Shown here: positions 1 through 55,134 of the stretch, piece after piece | Layout: every line of letters begins with the position of its first letter | How positions within the stretch are numbered: the first letter of the stretch is position 1 | From: Austropuccinia psidii | Lineage: Eukaryota > Basidiomycota > Pucciniomycetes > Pucciniales > Sphaerophragmiaceae | Direction: 5' to 3' | DNA length: 64,000 nucleotides | Assembly: GCA_023105745.1 (NCBI GenBank) | Contig: JALGQZ010000001.1 | Coordinates: 58,733,437-58,797,436, forward strand | Position numbers and translations under genes: made by a program | The notes under the pieces: model-generated | What the model saw: the letters and a program-made list of their open reading frames with translations, nothing else | Database searches by the model: none | Told to the model about the DNA's origin: nothing

Positions 1-151
1 CACTATTGCAAAATGGTAAAGCCCTTTTATTTCACCTATAAACCATTATTTTCAATAAATTCTTTTATTTTATTACTTTATTTCCGTGTCACAGTCAAAG
101 TTAAAGCTGTAACTAGCCTAATTACTTCTTCTACATAGACTCATCCTGACA
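1..151 (+). repeat. 3' end of the 5' LTR of gypsy-1a (family A)
   Basis: The bases match 8259-8405 of the downstream LTR with few differences and end in the same CATCCTGACA. An AATAAA polyadenylation-type hexamer lies at 54-59, as at 8308-8313 in the 3' LTR. U3 and the promoter are off the left edge. Confidence 0.92.
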
Positions 152-154
152 TTT

Positions 155-170
155 TGGGGGCCTGGCCATG
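155..170 (+). other. candidate primer-binding site of gypsy-1a
   Basis: Starting three bases after the LTR end is TGGGGGCCTGGCCATG. A TGG start is expected for a site that pairs with a tRNA 3' CCA. The TGGGGG start resembles tRNA-Pro primed sites, but I cannot name the tRNA. The TTTTGGGG core recurs just inside the LTRs of both gypsy-2 elements (28781 and, reversed, 62102), which supports function. Confidence 0.5.
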
Positions 171-196: not shown

Positions 197-754
197 GTAA
201 GTCTTTTCTCTTTTTATGACTTATTAACAAGTGTTCTATCCTTTTTTAGGCGTAATTTCTCTATAAAAATATATATTTTATATATTTTATATATTTTTAT
301 CCTTTTTTTTATGTATACTCATATTATAAGAGTATTATTCACGTGGTTAATACCCACTGGAAATAACTATTTTTGGCGTGTTTTTTATATAAAAACACAT
401 AAGCCATTAATAAGTCCTGTATTCTTGACTGAATAAGGACACCTCTGACTGAAAAACCATCAGTTGAGGCGTGGTTAAGTGTACTGTTAACTCAATAAAC
501 ACTTATACAAAACCACTTGTACAGAATACACTTGAAAACCACAAGTGTATCTGTGGGATACTGGCACACAAACAGTGTGACAGGGTACCAAAAGCTGTAA
601 TTCTGACGTGGAATTGTTGATTCAATTACACTGTCATTATACAGGGCACATTGTAGTAACATACAAGCCCAAAGGCCAATCTTAGACGTGCAAAACCAGC
701 ATTTTTGAGAAGTCTTAACTGACATAAGCCCTCTTTTTCCTACCTTGATTTCAG
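197..754 (+). other. leader intron of gypsy-1a (predicted, 558 bp)
   Basis: The donor is GTAAGT at 197-202. The acceptor is TTTCAG ending at 754, with CTTAAC and CTGAC branch-type motifs near 714-723. The minus-strand copy has GTGAGT at the same place and TATTCAG at the other end, giving 565 bp. The exon on the 3' side is open from 755 but has no ATG. Joining the final A at 196 to TG at 755 makes ATG in frame. Transcript data are needed to prove use. Confidence 0.65.
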
Positions 755-1823
755 TGGAAGAAAATTACATCCCACTTGAGACCCAGTCACAGGCCAACAC
801 ACCAGTGACACCCTCAGAACCAGAGGGCAGCAAGGGCAAAGGAAAGAGGCACAGTGAAGGTCTCATCACAGCCAAGAAGTGGACTCCAATAGCCACTCAG
901 AGGAGTAGAAAACCACGAAACCCTGCTTCAATACAAGGTAAACCAACCTTAACCACTTGTACAGGGAAGATTACAATTATTAACCCAGTTGTAACCTCCA
1001 AAGGCAAACTGCCCAAATCAGCAGATAACAAATTTGTACAAGGCACAGTCAAAGGTAAATACCCAAGGAACATAAAGTTTTTGACTGCTTGCAAACACTG
1101 ATATGTCCCCTGCTCACCTCAGAGACCTTGGCTTCCAAAGGAACCAGCCAGAGGACAGAGAAGGATTGTCCAGAACCAGAAGACCTGAAAGAGGACACAT
1201 TGGACACAGTGGTGGATGGCAAAACAATGAGGGATATAATATCAACCTTGCCATTCACACTCCAATTCAACAGAAACCTCAAACCAGAGGACCGGAAGGA
1301 TATAGATGAAGTTCTTCAGATCCACCAACTCCTCAAAGATTTGTTTCAATGGAGCATGGACAACAAGAGGTTCAACCTAGCAACTCACCGGGCAGAACTG
1401 GGATCAAGTTGCCAGAAGATCTGTCTCAAAGAGATATACTTCAAAAACCTTATGGAAATCACCAAGGGTTGGAATCCTACCGGGCAGCACAGACTCCTGG
1501 AGGCAAGGGCACAGATGATAAGGGAGAATCAAGCCACTATCCTAGCTATAGAAGAACAGTTGACCCAGACAGGGCCTACTCAGATTCCTTCAGGTTCACA
1601 AGGAGCAGGCCAAATCAGCTCTCCAGTGGCTTCACACCATTCAGAAACCAGCAGATCAGTGACGAAGAGTCACCATTCTTCACAATTCCAGGAGGTTTCC
1701 AGGAGAAGACAAGGAAACAAGGGCAAGAACAAATCCTCCTTCAACCAGAGGAGGAAAGAGTCAGACCCCATGATCCAGAAGCTGTTATATTTGGTAAAAG
1801 AAGTACACAAGAACCAGAAGTAG
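755..1823 (+). CDS. ORF-X, spliced accessory protein of gypsy-1a (333 aa predicted)
   Basis: Exons are the A at 196, 755-1054 and 1123-1823; the sum is 1002 nt, an intact frame. No ATG occurs in the 755-1054 exon, so the start would be created by the leader splice. The first 100 residues are polar and Lys/Ser/Thr-rich. The second exon begins ETLASKG and has a middle part with charged helical stretches (DLFQWSMDNKRFNL, IRENQ). A basic Arg/Lys-rich tract (SRRRQGNKGKNK) lies near the C-terminus, which ends HKNQK. I recognise no catalytic domain. Exon 2 overlaps Gag in a different frame. The basic tract could bind nucleic acid or act as a nuclear signal; that is inference. The minus-strand copy has the same exon lengths with a single stop. 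Confidence 0.6.
1055..1122 (+). other. 68-bp intron that contains the Gag-Pol start codon
   Basis: The donor is G|GTAAAT at 1055, the branch-type motif CACTGAT at 1096-1102, and the acceptor CACCTCAG ends at 1122. The Gag ATG is at 1103-1105, between branch point and acceptor. Splicing joins the 755-1054 frame to the 1123-1823 frame through a GAG codon. The minus copy keeps donor, branch motif, ATG and acceptor, with an identical 68-bp length (54269-54202). Confidence 0.7.
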
Positions 1824-3150
1824 CTGTAAACCACTCTAGAATCAGTAGTCCTAGTAATAGAAAAATTACCTCCACTCAGACTGAACATAAAATTGTCACA
1901 TCTGAGAGTAACATCAACAGTGATGCACTGTGGTTACAAATGTCCCTATATGGTGAGCAATCTGCAAAACAGTTTTCAGAACTTGAAGCAAGCCATGAGA
2001 GGTTGAAGAAATTGACAGCCTCCATGGATAAAATAATTAAAAATCTTCAAGAAGGCCATGCTGAATTGCGCGAATCCTCTGAAGAAACCAACAAGAGACT
2101 GAATCTAGTCTTTGAAGAACAACACCACACCAAAAGGGACAGGGATTGTCTGGACCAAGACATAAACAAATTGTTTAATGTCTACCATAACTTGAAGCCC
2201 CAACCACAAGGCCAAGTTATGGAAAATCCATATCTACCAGAGGACATCAAACCATATGCCATGTTGATGAATAAAGCAAGATCTCCATCACAATACCAGG
2301 ATGGAGATGGCATGTCTTATTCAGAGAAGGAAGCCTTGAAACAGCTTCCTGAGGCCTCAAGCTGGCCCAAATTCTCTGGAACAGGAGAATATGATCATAT
2401 GGAACTCATAGATTATATTGATGGACTCTTCATTGATGTACCTAGCATACCAGATTACTGGATTACTGCTAGATTGAATACAGATTTAAAGGTCATGCTA
2501 GTATATGGTACACAGAAATGAAAGAAATCCATGGAAGAAGAAACTGGCCATGGTGGAAAAGTCAAATAATCCAAAATTACAGTAATGGAACTTGGATATG
2601 GCAAAAGACCATGTCATTTGACAATGACAAATACTCTGTGGACAAATATCCATATGAGTGGTGTCTTAGACAGTCTAAAAGACTTAAAGCCATTGATCCT
2701 CAGATGAACATCCAAATGAGGAATCACAAACTTCTGACACAGCTGCCAGGAGAACTAGAGCATGCAGTAAAATGCAGATGCAACCAAAATTTCACTCTAG
2801 ATGAAATTGCTAATACCTTACAAGACATAAGCAAAAGAACTAATATAGGAAAATTCACCCCATATAAAAGCAGTGGTTTCAGGGAGAAAAAACCTTTCAG
2901 GGTAGAGTTTAAAGACAAAACCAAAGAAAGAGTTGCAGAAGTGGCAAAGAAGAAAAATTCTTGTCACAATTGTGGTTCAACAGACCACTATGCCAACAAC
3001 TGCCCAAAGGCAAAGAAAAAAGTCTATGCCATTGAGAAAGTCCCAGAGGAGGAATCCCCAACAGTGGATTCCGAATTGGACTCTATGGGTGATGCCATCA
3101 GAAAACTATATGATGATGACCAATACCCAAAGGAAGAATTTCTAGTAGAA
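1103..3150 (+). pseudogene. Gag of gypsy-1a, broken
   Basis: The start is ATG at 1103 (MSPAHLRDLGF), inside the 68-bp intron, so Gag needs unspliced RNA. The N-terminal part (1103-1823) is polar, low in hydrophobics and overlaps ORF-X. A charged, coiled-coil-like stretch follows at about 1960-2200. The capsid-like region is at about 2330-2820 (GTGEYDHMELIDYIDGLF, then a Trp-rich NWPWWKSQI). A CCHC zinc knuckle, CHNCGSTDHYANNC, lies at 2961-3003. Lesions: nonsense at 1307-1309 and a one-base loss near 2490 that shifts frame 2 to frame 1. The protein would coat genomic RNA in the cytoplasmic particle. Confidence 0.88.
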
Positions 3151-3882
3151 TACCAAGAGGAAACCCCACTAGAAATTCAGGACATACAGTTGGAAGCAGG
3201 CATGCCACAGGATACTGCCAATAAAGACTTGTGCAAACACACACAAGATGCACAAACATTCCTGGTTAAACCAACCAAAGGGATGGCATATATACATGGA
3301 ACAGCCACTAAAATGACTGTCTTCATTGACAATGCTCAACATCCATTGCTCATTGATAGTGGGGCACACTGCTCCATAGTGGCCAGAAATTATCTGGATA
3401 ACCACTTCCCAAATTGGGAAAAACAGCTCTTGCCCACCAAGGCAAAGAACTTTAAAAGTGCCTCAGGAAAGATGACTTCCATTGGTACAATTATCAAAGA
3501 TATAATTATACCCCAAAGGATGGGTAATATCAGACTCAACCCAGAGTTTGTAGTTCTTGATGATGCCCAGATCCAAGGGTTCCTACTGGGAACAGACTAC
3601 CAGAGGATGCATGGCATAGATATTTGCAACAGTAAAAATAGGTACATTACCATTGGTACCAATGAGGAAAAGAAATATTAACTTTATATATACCAGATAT
3701 CTTCTCAAGATCCACTTGCAGAACTTCTTCATGAATTCAGGGAGGGAATTCTTAGCACTACCCTCACCAGTAAACAAAAACTAAGCTTACTGAAGAGGCT
3801 GAGAAAGAACAGACCGGCATTTGCCATTGGTGAAGAACCATTAGGCAAGATCAAAGGCCATGATAAAGAAATAGATCTGGAT
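3151..3882 (+). pseudogene. protease region of gypsy-1a Pol
   Basis: The frame is continuous with Gag after 2518. The aspartic protease active-site motif LLIDSGAHCSIV has its Asp codon at 3355-3357, and a hydrophobic GFLLGTDYQ segment lies about 75 residues downstream. The enzyme would cleave the Gag-Pol polyprotein in particles. A TAA at 3679-3681, where the minus copy reads Ser, terminates translation before RT. I see no separate Gag stop or frameshift signal between Gag and Pol, so a single polyprotein is likely in the ancestor. Confidence 0.86.
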
Positions 3883-5190: not shown

Positions 5191-6475
5191 TAATGTCAAG
5201 AGCAATCCAGCTTATGACCCTGCAGTTGCAGCCAAGATCCCTATCCATTTCATGGAAATAGAGAGGAGGAAGAACTTCAGATTTTCTGAATGGGAACCAG
5301 AAAGTGGTACCCTTGACAGTGGAAAAACTGATTCAGAGGGAGCAGAAACTTTCATATTGGAAATAAGTTCCTCAGAGCTGCACAATACGTTTTTCAGTGC
5401 AGTACTAAAGTCTTATGCCAAACACAAACAGTGTGGCATATTACTACAACTCCTTCAACAAAAATACAGGAGTCCAGAACTGGAATTCCAGCTGGAAGAA
5501 CCCTGGTTAAGGGCCTATAAGGATAACAAGTTCTTCCTTATAGATGGCCTGCTCTACCACAGAGAAAAACACACAAGTGCACTCACAGTGGTAGACAGGT
5601 ACCACATCTCTCCAATCCTGCAGGAATGCCATGACTGCCCCTATAGGGGACACATGAGTGAGGATAGGACCAAGGAGAGGGTAACAAGCACAGCTTGGTG
5701 GCCCAAGTGGGAACAAGAGTTGAGTGAATACATCAACACTTGTGAAAGATGCCAAAAGGCAAATAGGAAACATGGGAACAAGTATGGGTTACTTCAACAT
5801 ATAGAAGAACCCAAACACCCATGGGAAACCATCAACATGGACTGGGTTACAGGACTTGTCCCAGGAGGCAAGGAAAGCTACAATGCCTGCTTGATCATAG
5901 TTGATAGGTTCAGCAAGAGCATGAGGTGTCTACCATGCCACAAAGAAGACACATCAATGAATACTGCTCTTTTATTTTGGAATAACATCATATCTACCTG
6001 TGGAGTCCCTAAGATCATCATTAGTGATAAGGAACCAAAATTCACATCTGAGTTTTGGACAAACTTGTATGACCTACTTGGCACCAAGCTTTCTTTTTCC
6101 ACAGCTTACCATCCACAAACAGATGGCCTAACTGAGAGGATGATTCAAAAAATGGAGGAAATCCTTAGAAGGTTCTGTGCCTATGGCATGGAATATAAAG
6201 ACCATGAGGGATATACTCATGACTGGGTTACCCTTCTACCAGCTTTCCAACTGGCTTTCAATACAAGTCAGCACTCTACCACAGGAAAAACACCTGCACT
6301 GGTGGAGAAAGGGTGGAATCCCTTGTTACCTGTGGATCACTTGAAGAAGAATCTTCTAACCATCCACCCCACAGCCAAAGAATTCCATGATATGTGGAAG
6401 AGAGCTTGTGATACAGCTGCTAAATGAATAGCTGAGGCAACAGATTATGATAAGCAGAGGTGGGACAAGTCACAC
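5191..6475 (+). pseudogene. integrase of gypsy-1a
   Basis: An HHCC zinc-binding domain lies at about 5626-5760 ([14 protein letters not shown] to CERCQKAN). The catalytic triad is visible: Asp 5840 (NMDWVTG), Asp 6026 (ISDKEPKF) and Glu 6134 (DGLTERM), with a D-35-E spacing. The frame is open to a TGA at 6425-6427 that replaces Cys in the minus copy. The protein would insert the cDNA into chromatin. Of all domains in this copy it is the least damaged: one long open stretch from 4979 to 6427 also covers RNase H. Confidence 0.9.
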
Positions 6476-6954
6476 ATGGAACCTGATTTTAAGGAAGGGG
6501 ACCAGGTGTTAGTTTCTACCCTAAACTTCAGCAATCTTAAAGGACCCAAGAAGATGAGAGACTCATTTTTAGTGCCCTTCACTATCATTAAGTTGGTAGG
6601 CAAGAATGCAGTGGAAGTCAAGCTCACAGAGGAGTTTTCCAGGAAACACCCAGTCTTTCCAGTGAGTTTGGTCAAGCCATACTTCCAAACAGAAGAGGGT
6701 AAATTCCCCTCCAGGAAGAAGAACCTCACCCACCAGAAATAGTGGAAGTAGAGGACTCCCCAGGACCTGTGAGTAAATTCATCAGGGCCAGGAAGATCAG
6801 ACTTAATGGGAAGGATCAAAGACCATATTTAGTCAGATTCAAGAACCAAGCAGCTGATAAAGACAAATGGTTAGCAGAAGATGCCATACCAGATGGGAAC
6901 CTTCATTTAAGACACTTCAGGGCCTCTAGGAGGACTGAACAGTCTCATCAATGA
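6476..6954 (+). pseudogene. integrase C-terminal GPF-like and chromodomain-like tail of gypsy-1a
   Basis: The segment FKEGDQVLVSTLNF to HPVFPVSLVKPY is the GPY/F-type module that follows the integrase core. A one-base loss near 6731 shifts frame. The remainder (6742-6954) reads ARKIRLNGKDQRPYLVRFKN to WLAEDAIPDGNLHLRHF, a short chromodomain-like fold: aromatic strand, acidic Trp segment, C-terminal helix. Such domains direct integration to modified histones. The match is remote and made by eye. Confidence 0.75.
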
Positions 6955-6965
6955 TGAGCTTTTTT

Positions 6966-52700: not shown

Positions 52701-54221
52701 TTCAAATGACATGCTGTTTTACCATATCCAAGTACCATTGCTGTACTTTGGGATTATTTGACTCTTCCACCATGGCCAGTTGCTTTTGCCATGGATTTCT
52801 TTCATTTCTGTGTACCATATACTAGCATTTCCATTGAATTCTGTATTACGTCTAGCAGTAATCCAGTAGTCTGGAATGCTTGGTACATTAATGAAGAGTC
52901 CATCAATATAATCTATGAGTTCCATATGATCATATTCTCCAGTTCCAGAGAATCGGGGCCAGCTTGAGGCCTCAGGAAGCTGTTTCAGGGCTTCCTTCTC
53001 TGAACTAGACATATTATCTCCATCCTGGTATTGTGATGGAGATCTTGCCTTATTCATCAAGATGGCATCTGATTTGATGTCATCTTGATGATATGGATTA
53101 TAAATAACATGGCCTTGTGGTGGGGGCTTCATGTTATGGTAGACATTAAACAGCTTGTTTATGTCTTGATCCAGACAATCCCTGTCCCTTTTGCTGTGGT
53201 GTTGTTCTTCAAATACTAGATCGAGTCTTTTGTTGGTCTCTTCAGAGGCTTTCCTCAACTGAGCATGTCCCTCTTGAAGGTATTTGACAATTTTGGCCAT
53301 GGAGGCTGTTAATGCTTTCATCCTCTCATGGCTTTCTGGGATTTCTGAAAACTGCTTTTGAGTTTGCTCAGTAAGTTGCAACATTTGTAACCACAGTGCC
53401 TCACTGTTTAGGTTATTTTCTGGTGTGACAACATTGTGATCAATCTGAGTCGGGGTAATATTTCTACTAATGCAACTACTGATTCTAGAGCTATTTACAA
53501 CTACTTCTGGCTCTTGTGAACATCTTTCACCAAATCTAACAGCTTCTGGATCATTTGGTCTGAATCTTTCCTCCTCTGGATGAAGGTGGTCTTGTTTTTT
53601 CCCTTGTATCCTTGTCTTCTCCTGGAAACTTCCTGGGATTGTGAAGAATGGTGACTGTTGGCCACTGATCTGTTGGTTTCTGACTGTTGTGAAGCCACTG
53701 GAGAGCTGATTTGTCCTGCTTCTTATGAGCCTGAACAAATCTGAGTATGCCCTGTCTGGGTCAGCTGTTCTTCTATAGCTTGAATATTGGCTTGATTCTC
53801 CCTTATCCTGTTTGCCCTCACCTCCAGGAGTCTGAACGGCCTGGTAGGATTCCAACCTTTGGCGATTATCATAAGGTCTCTGAAGTCTATCTCTTTGAGA
53901 TAAATCTTCTGGCAACTTTCTCCAAGTTCTTCCAAGTGGGATGCCAGGTTGAACCTCTTGTTGTCCATGCTCCATTGAAATAAATCTTTGAGGAGTTTGT
54001 GGAGCTGACGAGCTTGATCCATATCGTTCCAGTCCTCTTGTTTTAGGTTCCTGATGAATTGGAAAGTGAATGGAAGAGTGGGTATTATTTCCCTCAGTGT
54101 CTTGCCATCTACCACTGTGTCGGAGGTGTCCTCTTCCAGGTCTTCTGGTTCTGGACAAGCCTTCTCTGTCCTCTGGTTGGTTCCTTTGGAAGCCAAGGTT
54201 TCTGAGGTGTACAGGTGACAT
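52701..54221 (-). pseudogene. gypsy-1b Gag, one 500-codon open stretch
   Basis: The start is ATG at 54221 (MSPVHLRNLGF), inside the 68-bp intron. It is open to TAA at 52719-52721, where gypsy-1a has Gln. It contains the polar N-terminal part overlapping ORF-X, a coiled-coil-like stretch near 53350-53150 and the capsid-like GTGEYDHMELIDYIDGLF and NWPWWKSQI. This copy shows that Gag in the ancestor had no stop in the 720-nt overlap. Confidence 0.88.
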
Positions 54222-54569
54222 ATCAGTATTTTCAAGCAGTCAAAAGCTTTATGTTCTTAGATTATTTACCTTTGACTGTTCCTTGCACAAATTTGTTGTC
54301 TTCTGATTTTGAAAATCTACCTTTAGAGGTTACAACTGGGTTAACTGTGGTAATTTTCCCTGTACAAGTGGTTAAGTTTGGTTTACCTTGTATTGAATCA
54401 GAGTTTTGTGGTTTTCTATTCCTCTGAGTGGCAATAGGTGTCCACTTTTTTTCTGTAATGAGACCTTCACTAGGCCTCTTTCCTTTTCCCTTGCTGCCCT
54501 CTGGTTCCGAGGTTGTCACTGATTTGTTGGCTTGTGACCTGGTTTCTAGTGGGATATAGCTTTCTTCCA
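53501..54569 (-). pseudogene. ORF-X of gypsy-1b (one nonsense codon)
   Basis: Exons are the A at 55135, 54569-54270 and 54201-53501, together 1002 nt, identical in length to gypsy-1a. There are no indels. The only lesion is TAA at 53723-53725, replacing a Gln codon. Ends and motifs agree: MEESYIPLE at the splice-made start, ETLASKG at exon 2, a basic SRRRQGYKGKNK tract, and HKSQK at the C-terminus. Confidence 0.62.
54202..54269 (-). other. 68-bp intron of gypsy-1b containing the Gag ATG
   Basis: Minus strand: donor GTAAAT, branch-type TACTGAT, ATG at 54221-54219, acceptor CACCTCAG. Same length and layout as 1055-1122. Confidence 0.68.
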
Positions 54570-55134
54570 CTGAATAAAACAGGAAAAGAGGGCTTAATGT
54601 CAGTTAAGACCTCTTAAAATGCTTTTTGCACGTCTAACAATGGCCTCTGGGCTTGTATGTCACTACAATATGCCCTTGTATAATGACAGTGTGATTGAAT
54701 TAACAATTTCACGTCAGAAATACAGCCTACAGATATCTGGTACACTGTTTGTATGCCAGTATCCCACAGAGTAACTTGTAATTAGCAAGTATAATCTGAT
54801 AATAGTGGTATGTAAGAGTGTAATTGAATCAACAACACACTCAACAAAGCCTCAACTGTTGGTTTTACAATAAGAGGTGTCCTTATATTAATTAAAAAAG
54901 GACTTTGTTCATTTCTTAAAGTGTTTTTATATTGAAAACAGGCCAAAAATAAAAAAATTTGAGGTGATTATAATCAACCACGTCAATGTTTGGTTTAAAA
55001 ACAGTCGGTATATAAGATATACCAAAATATATATATATATAGATGCAATATGTTTTACTTTATTTTTCTCAAGAAATTACCCTAGAAAGATAAAACATTG
55101 TGTCAGAATATAAGAAAATAAGTAAAAAACTCAC
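54570..55134 (-). other. leader intron of gypsy-1b
   Basis: Donor GTGAGT at 55134, acceptor TATTCAG ending at 54570, 565 bp. The base before the donor is A and the exon after begins TGGAAGAA, making ATG GAA GAA. Confidence 0.62.

Follow-up and report, generated by a model that had tools for sequence, protein, structure and literature searches.

Results

A Ty3/gypsy element with a short intron at the Gag start codon

The window analyzed here is a 64,000-nt stretch of the myrtle rust fungus Austropuccinia psidii (assembly GCA_023105745.1, contig JALGQZ010000001.1, positions 58,733,437 to 58,797,436), whose genome comprises 1,015,390,075 bases in 84 contigs and is described in an earlier report as just over 1 Gb with Gypsy elements dominant (PMC8063080). 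It holds two copies of a long terminal repeat (LTR) retrotransposon of the Ty3/gypsy group (Metaviridae), the 5′ part of which contains a 68-nt intron. Copy 1 lies on the plus strand, and copy 2, on the minus strand, aligns to it from 55239 down to 47048 (Table 1). Pfam domains follow the order zf-CCHC, RVT_1, RT_RNaseH, Integrase_H2C2, and rve, and the best solved relative of the integrase part is Ty3-G Gag-Pol. The features of Ty3/gypsy membership were found: LTRs, target duplications (in two genomic copies), CCHC, reverse transcriptase, and RNase H, then integrase. The LTR is approximately 1.43 kb and runs TGTCAG...CTGACA, with the ends TGTCAGCCTG...CCTGACA in fetched copies. A 27-base pattern for the unspliced donor in the leader (at most three mismatches) had 8,517 genome matches, the mark of a very large family. 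Copy 1 is damaged: a stop interrupts Gag at codon 69 (1307-1309), the sequence differs from copy 2 by one base near 2480, and another stop lies at 3679-3681. Between its integrase frame and the 3′ LTR (6428-6959), no open reading frame (ORF) of at least 150 amino acids was seen, in copies that are damaged and with no search made for env.

A first-pass annotation of this DNA had read the 68 nt as an intron that removes the Gag start codon and switches the reading frame. All of the sites it named are present, namely GTAAAT at 1055, CTGAT at 1098-1102, ATG at 1103-1105, and CACCTCAG ending at 1122, and the minus-strand intron at 54202-54269 is identical to the first in length and sites.

Table 1. 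Features of the two element copies in the window
Feature	Position	Strand	Basis or remark
Copy 1, 3′ part of the 5′ LTR (ends CCTGACA; window begins inside the LTR)	1..151	+	LTR ends of fetched copies
Copy 1, putative primer-binding region TTTTGGGGGCCTGGCC behind the 5′ LTR	152..168	+	inferred from position only
Copy 1, leader splice donor GTAAGT after A196	197..202	+	AAGTRAGT in 40/41 copies; used in 11 + 8 spliced genomic copies
Copy 1, long leader intron, acceptor 754	197..754	+	missing in 11 genomic copies, including the diverged L066
Copy 1, short leader intron, alternative acceptor TTTTTAG ending at 249	197..249	+	missing in 8 genomic copies, including the more diverged L132
Copy 1, first accessory coding exon, frame A/TG GAA GAA, no ATG of its own	755..1054	+	third-position excess
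Copy 1, optional in-frame 66-nt intron in the first accessory exon (intron 2)	938..1003	+	missing in 11/19 junction copies
Copy 1, 68-nt intron (intron 3)	1055..1122	+	exactly missing in 19 genomic copies
Copy 1, branch-point-like CTGAT (CTAAC in the older subfamily)	1098..1102	+
Copy 1, Gag ATG inside the 68-nt intron	1103..1105	+	41/41 copies
Copy 1, Gag frame, stop at codon 69	1103..2521	+
Copy 1, second accessory exon, overlapping Gag in another frame, 233-aa open frame	1123..1823	+	protein matches, codon-position pattern
Copy 2, long leader intron, donor GTGAGT, acceptor TTCAG	54570..55134	-
Copy 2, first accessory exon	54270..54569	-
Copy 2, 68-nt intron	54202..54269	-
Copy 2, second accessory exon, one internal stop	53501..54201	-
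Copy 2, Gag frame, 500 aa	52719..54221	-

Genomic copies of spliced element RNA

Joints in the genome settled the matter of splicing; conservation of the sites alone would not have done so. The whole genome was searched with a 27-base pattern for the 1054/1123 joint (at most three mismatches), with the reversed pattern as control. There were 19 matches and none for the control, and all 19 copies, when fetched and compared, lack 1055-1122, which bears out splicing exactly at 1054/1123 and removal of the Gag ATG. Nine of them (L048, L049, L056, L057, L059, L060, L061, L065, and L066) also lack 197-754, a long intron in the leader, together with 938-1003 (intron 2), which is bordered by AAG/GTAAAC and CCAAAG/GC. 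L051 and L052 keep the leader and lack 938-1003 and 1055-1122, while only the 68 bases are missing from L050, L053, L054, L055, L058, L062, L063, and L064.

A 32-base pattern for the 196/755 joint gave 10 matches (reversed control, 0), comprising eight of the nine copies without 197-754 (not L066) and two new ones, L101 and L102, in which 197-754 alone is missing and intron 3 is retained with the Gag ATG. Among the nine, the joint reads CTTATAATGG in five and has small changes in three; the leader of L066 has diverged (AGAAAATGG). A 196/250 joint, at most two mismatches being allowed, had 49 matches (control, 1), most of them unspliced by their letters, and ten were fetched. The short leader intron is missing from eight of these, namely L123-L129 and L132, which is more diverged. 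Seven of the eight retain intron 3 with the Gag ATG; the motif test failed for L132, but its alignment runs through. The other two, L130 and L131, were discarded as chance matches.

In total, 29 spliced copies were found in five combinations: short leader intron only (8), long leader intron only (2), intron 3 only (8), introns 2 and 3 (2), and long leader intron with introns 2 and 3 (9). Judged by these fossils rather than by RNA, the leader donor was used for subgenomic RNA at 196/755 in 11 genomic copies and at 196/250 in 8. The short and long leader introns start at a common donor, and the short one is lost alone in its eight copies; its loss would shorten the Gag leader and leave Gag itself untouched, and may mark a separate pool of translated RNA.

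A start codon created by splicing

The 19 genomic copies also carry the fusion, proposed at first pass, of an upstream open frame to a frame overlapping Gag. The upstream exon has no start codon of its own, a point missed at first pass: none of five copies tested contains an ATG in 757-1054. The start lies across the leader joint. Removing 197-754 joins A196 to TG at 755-756 and creates the accessory ATG; the exon behind acceptor 754 opens TG GAA GAA, and the joint reads ATG GAA GAA, with A at -3 and G at +4. The first residue encoded across this joint is M in 22 of 22 copies and in 17 of 19 copies selected by a pol query (see below). The joint had been proposed before any spliced copy was found, prompted by gene models of A. 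psidii MF-1 that start MEEN or MEDN, and was favored among three options, its acceptor then being placed at 752. The other options were the short intron 197-249 and a donor at 655. The latter (GTAACA) was rejected as the source of A/TG: most of 20 copies have ATAATA or GTAATA there, and no aligned copy uses it.

The leader donor sits 45 nt behind the 5′ LTR, and the leader is poor in ATG. Seven copies have 0 to 3 ATG in 156-1102 vs. first-order Markov means of 11.8 to 14.3 (500 simulations per copy, never fewer than 3), and the reverse-complement word CAT occurs 13 to 16 times in the same leaders. Across 41 copies the leader count is 0, 1, 2, 3, 4, and 8 in 11, 13, 8, 5, 3, and 1 copies, respectively, and 17 usable pol-selected copies have 1 to 7. 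Without splicing, the upstream frame of copy 1 stops at UGA 1099-1101, one base ahead of the Gag ATG at 1103, and that of copy 2 stops earlier than in copy 1.

A catalogue of places where the leader end is not followed by G (274 places; control, 17) was uninformative on acceptors. Among 18 places inspected, 17 were unspliced with a changed donor or variant leader and one was unrelated. L098 and L099 have a variant leader, TTATAAAGTAAGT, with one extra A; they keep the A before the donor, and the splice-made ATG would therefore persist.

Splice sites in young and older copies

The young sample comprised 41 aligned copies, 39 genomic and the two from the window. The donor AAGGTAAAT and the branch/ATG motif CTGATATG are present in all 41, the acceptor is CCTCAGAG in 40 and CCTCAGAA in one (differing by one base behind the acceptor), and the 68-nt length is kept in 40. 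This conservation is inflated because the copies were picked with a query spanning 900-1300, and a second sample was therefore picked with a pol query. It listed 40 places, of which 20 were fetched and 19 aligned (L120, with no shared sequence, was excluded); L115 and L122 are without a true leader, leaving 17 copies usable there. Of the 19 aligned pol-selected copies, 16 keep the 68-nt intron length and 15 carry CTAACATG as the branch/ATG motif. The subfamilies were compared using 26 of the 41 young and 14 pol-selected copies (L115 and L122, without leader, L106, L107, and L103, not clearly of the older group, and L120, without match, were left out), a net divergence above 0.6 being termed fixed-like. 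Two fixed-like changes lie in the branch/ATG motif, with both CTRAY, the fungal branch consensus, and ATG kept.

Selection on two overlapping frames

The accessory product would have 311 residues with all three introns removed and 333 with intron 2 kept, and is basic, with isoelectric points of 10.1 for exon 755-1054 (100 residues), 9.2 for the second exon (233 residues), and 10.8 for the last 60 residues. Shared variable sites, defined by a minor base in at least three of the 41 young copies, number 1, 5, and 14 at accessory codon positions 1, 2, and 3 in 757-1054, and 3, 6, and 20 in 1125-1820. The Gag-only stretch 1826-2440 has 16, 13, and 25 in the Gag frame, and single-copy changes are nearly even across codon positions. 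Fixed-like differences between subfamilies likewise number 1, 4, and 20 in 757-1054 (20 of 25 at third positions) and 6, 3, and 14 in 1125-1820 (14 of 23). On a 60-copy tree, parsimony placed 41, 49, and 85 changes in 1125-1820 on inner and 147, 167, and 214 on end branches, with no significant difference in codon-position counts between the two (P 0.17). The third-position excess in the accessory frame therefore shows that the accessory protein has been kept by selection, and upholds the earlier view that the upstream frame continues into a second, Gag-overlapping frame, which evolves as a protein. Within the overlap, the accessory frame is under tighter constraint than the Gag frame. Of the 41 young copies, 29 have an intact spliced frame; in the older sample this holds for 1 of 19, and two more have no stop in the piece seen.

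A protein search with the 1122-1820 frame returned 864 matches, and the 120 listed were all hypothetical proteins of A. psidii MF-1, whose gene models were taken as gene-finder output, not RNA evidence. The 1054/1123 joint is present in 35 of the 120 listed, and six use a donor near 1003 instead.

The Gag frame was scrutinized by synonymous shuffling of the accessory frame. In four copies this gave means of 7.8 to 8.9 Gag stops vs. 0 observed, with none of 2,000 shuffles per copy reaching 0; the mean for copy 1 was 9.3 vs. 1 observed. The Gag frame has thus been kept open too. The first 240 Gag codons are open in 33 of 41 young and 7 of 19 older-sample copies, and in copy 1 the zinc-knuckle ORF at 2518-3681 matches the continuation of the Gag frame past the one-base gap relative to copy 2 near 2480.

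Origin of the spliced copies

The 3′ ends of eight junction copies were fetched; six show a 3′ LTR (L049 only partly) and two do not. Target duplications, looked for in six junction copies, were found as 5-bp repeats in L053 (TTTAG) and L054 (TCAGT), whose LTR pairs are 98.0% and 96.9% alike. The LTR pairs are 99.2% alike over 1,246 bases in L050, 98.6% over 724 in L056, and 94.4% over 232 in L049; in L051 they are 92.4% alike and a clear duplication was not seen. Two copies have both LTRs and 5-bp duplications, hence spliced RNA was reverse-transcribed and integrated, and at least some spliced copies came from it by the element's usual pathway. A 60-copy tree built on bases 1123-1830 (L060 and L066 only partly covered; bootstrap not settled) requires six state changes for the 19 spliced copies, at least four of which are forced by supported branches, and places L050, L053, and L054 separately among young unspliced copies. 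The tree thus indicates that the spliced copies have several origins.

Discussion

We consider it highly probable that, in this Ty3/gypsy LTR retrotransposon, alternative splicing decides which of two proteins, both encoded in the same DNA, is made. The unspliced RNA begins with a long leader that has an observed shortage of AUG, through which scanning ribosomes would reach the Gag(-Pol) AUG at 1103. Joining donor 197 to acceptor 754 combines the leader A and the exon TG into a new AUG and, with 1055-1122 also removed, the Gag AUG is lost and the new frame continues through the Gag-overlapping exon. Fully spliced RNA, the joints of which are preserved in genomic copies, would then yield a basic accessory protein of 311 to 333 amino acids, as its pattern of selection suggests. 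Made only from fully spliced RNA, this protein may control the fate of the unspliced RNA.

Several observations weigh against a choice between two proteins. Spliced joints amount to approximately 0.2% of the family (19 vs. 8,517), so splicing could be rare; this proportion would be expected either if unspliced RNA is preferentially packaged or if splicing is rare. Eight of the 19 junction copies lost the 68-nt intron alone and represent RNA carrying the start of neither protein. The first-pass annotation took splice sites no better conserved than neighboring silent positions as grounds for rejecting it, and in the older pol-selected copies the outcome is mixed, the sites being barely more conserved than their surroundings. 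There, conservation is 0.904 for the donor (1055-1060) vs. 0.898 and 0.890 for its neighbors, 0.956 for the acceptor (1117-1122) vs. 0.933 and 0.910, and 0.835 vs. 0.882 for 736-757, and the intron interior (1061-1097), with 0 of 37 positions fixed-like between subfamilies, is as conserved as the intron ends. The lack of ATG in 757-1054 is not significant by synonymous shuffling (means 1.1 to 1.3, P(0) 0.11 to 0.20). An open accessory frame is also unsurprising given Gag (means 0.7 to 1.3 stops, P(0) 0.18 to 0.40, five copies), and synonymous shuffling failed as proof of this frame. The MF-1 models disagree on the 5′ start, with 3 of the 120 listed beginning M-E-(E/D). Searches with the accessory protein gave no Pfam family and no solved relative by sequence in the PDB (best match E 0.65). 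Structure prediction performed poorly (mean predicted local distance difference test score 53), gave no confident fold, and was not used for fold searches.

One rival reading is that host splicing acts as noise on cryptic sites, the joints being dead by-products, as spliced L1 copies reportedly are, and the second frame no gene. The scarcity of spliced copies, the eight with neither start, and a frame whose openness is not improbable by chance given Gag are what such noise would leave. Against this, exon 755-1054 lies outside Gag and has no ATG, yet third positions hold 20 of its 25 subfamily differences and 14 of its 20 shared variable sites, and the A before the donor and the TG after 754 are kept, so that M is encoded in 22 of 22 and 17 of 19 copies. 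We therefore regard noise as unlikely. Less probable still is that the spliced protein forms the real N terminus of Gag, the frame from the 1103 ATG being spurious. The overlap is indeed more constrained in the accessory frame (3, 6, and 20, which in Gag order become 20, 3, and 6), but that frame ends at 1821-1823, whereas the 1103 frame continues to 2521 and then corresponds to the zinc-knuckle ORF, and its openness is under selection. Least credible, to the point of being negligible, is DNA deletion or processing of the long interspersed nuclear element type as the source of the intronless copies, for although target duplications were seen in only 2 of 6 copies looked at, the missing pieces match GT-AG introns to the base, the copies come from several tree branches, and L053 and L054 have two LTRs and 5-bp duplications.

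If splicing does choose between Gag and an accessory protein, a regulator of genomic RNA, like Rev or CERV of the nematode element Cer1, would by analogy be the most economical role for the latter, a likely if weakly supported assignment. The trait of the accessory protein that bears on such a role is its high isoelectric point. More specifically, and only tentatively, fully spliced RNA, its start codon assembled by splicing, may encode a basic regulatory protein, overprinted on gag, by which unspliced RNA is licensed for nuclear export or packaging; this would be a fungal counterpart of Rev and CERV of independent origin. Under such regulation, splicing would take place early, with Gag synthesis and transposition coming later.

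Accessory or env genes expressed through splicing are known from retroviruses, and in the complex retroviruses accessory proteins come only from spliced RNA, through multiply spliced mRNAs of the Rev/Tat type. The likeness to their splice control, remarked on at first pass, extends further than was claimed, in that a leader donor behind the 5′ LTR supplies the start codon. The rust element shares with them a leader donor behind the primer site, alternative acceptors, and an accessory protein from spliced RNA only; unlike them, it shows no env, for which no search was made, and Rev-like export would be an analogy. In BARE of barley, splicing reportedly favors Gag. Both elements would keep separate RNA pools for translation and replication, whereas splicing of the rust element abolishes Gag.

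A close parallel among LTR retrotransposons is Cer1 of Caenorhabditis elegans (PMC10309623). Its CERV protein is made from a spliced five-exon RNA, in which exon 4 is read in another frame, and genomic RNA requires it for export. In both elements, spliced RNA encodes an accessory protein with one exon in a non-gag frame and unspliced RNA makes Gag-Pol. CERV has no obvious homologs outside nematodes (PMC10309623). Unlike in Cer1, the rust start codon is made by splicing, Gag loses its ATG, and no coding exon extends beyond gag, all being located before or inside it. CERV has been demonstrated to export genomic RNA (PMC10309623); for the rust protein, such a function would follow by analogy. In insect endogenous retroviruses, the env exon is joined by splicing to several exons that precede it, in the springer subclade "from an AU dinucleotide" (PMC12992720), which we read as a precedent for a start codon completed by splicing. 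The springer product is Env (PMC12992720), unlike the accessory protein of the rust element, which is fungal, overlaps gag, and begins at A/UG. MDG1 elements carry two small frames ahead of gag, with no reported evidence of splicing (PMC11952523). No spliced accessory gene of fungal elements was found in the literature searched, mostly outside subscription journals, and word searches for such genes in PMC8063080, PMC12774611, PMC12210899, and PMC5014426 returned nothing.

Splice-made accessory or env genes have already been described for insect endogenous retroviruses (PMC12992720) and a nematode element (PMC10309623). The rust element shows that gag can host an overprinted second gene, with a start codon that is present in the RNA alone and escapes ordinary gene finding. 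The fungal genome preserves a fossil record of past splice forms, and the system is therefore testable without RNA. If the protein regulates genomic RNA, it would offer a way to study how elements of this kind became dominant in a gigabase fungal genome.

The AAAG/G near 1003 is the acceptor in 11 spliced copies and looks like a donor where GTAAAT comes next; the six MF-1 models joining a donor near 1003 to 1123 are P0015, P0017, P0023, P0030, P0107, and P0113. In RNA spliced only at 197-754, as represented by L101 and L102, the short accessory frame can end one base ahead of the Gag AUG, in the arrangement UGAUAUG or, in the older subfamily, UAACAUG, which could let ribosomes reinitiate at Gag.
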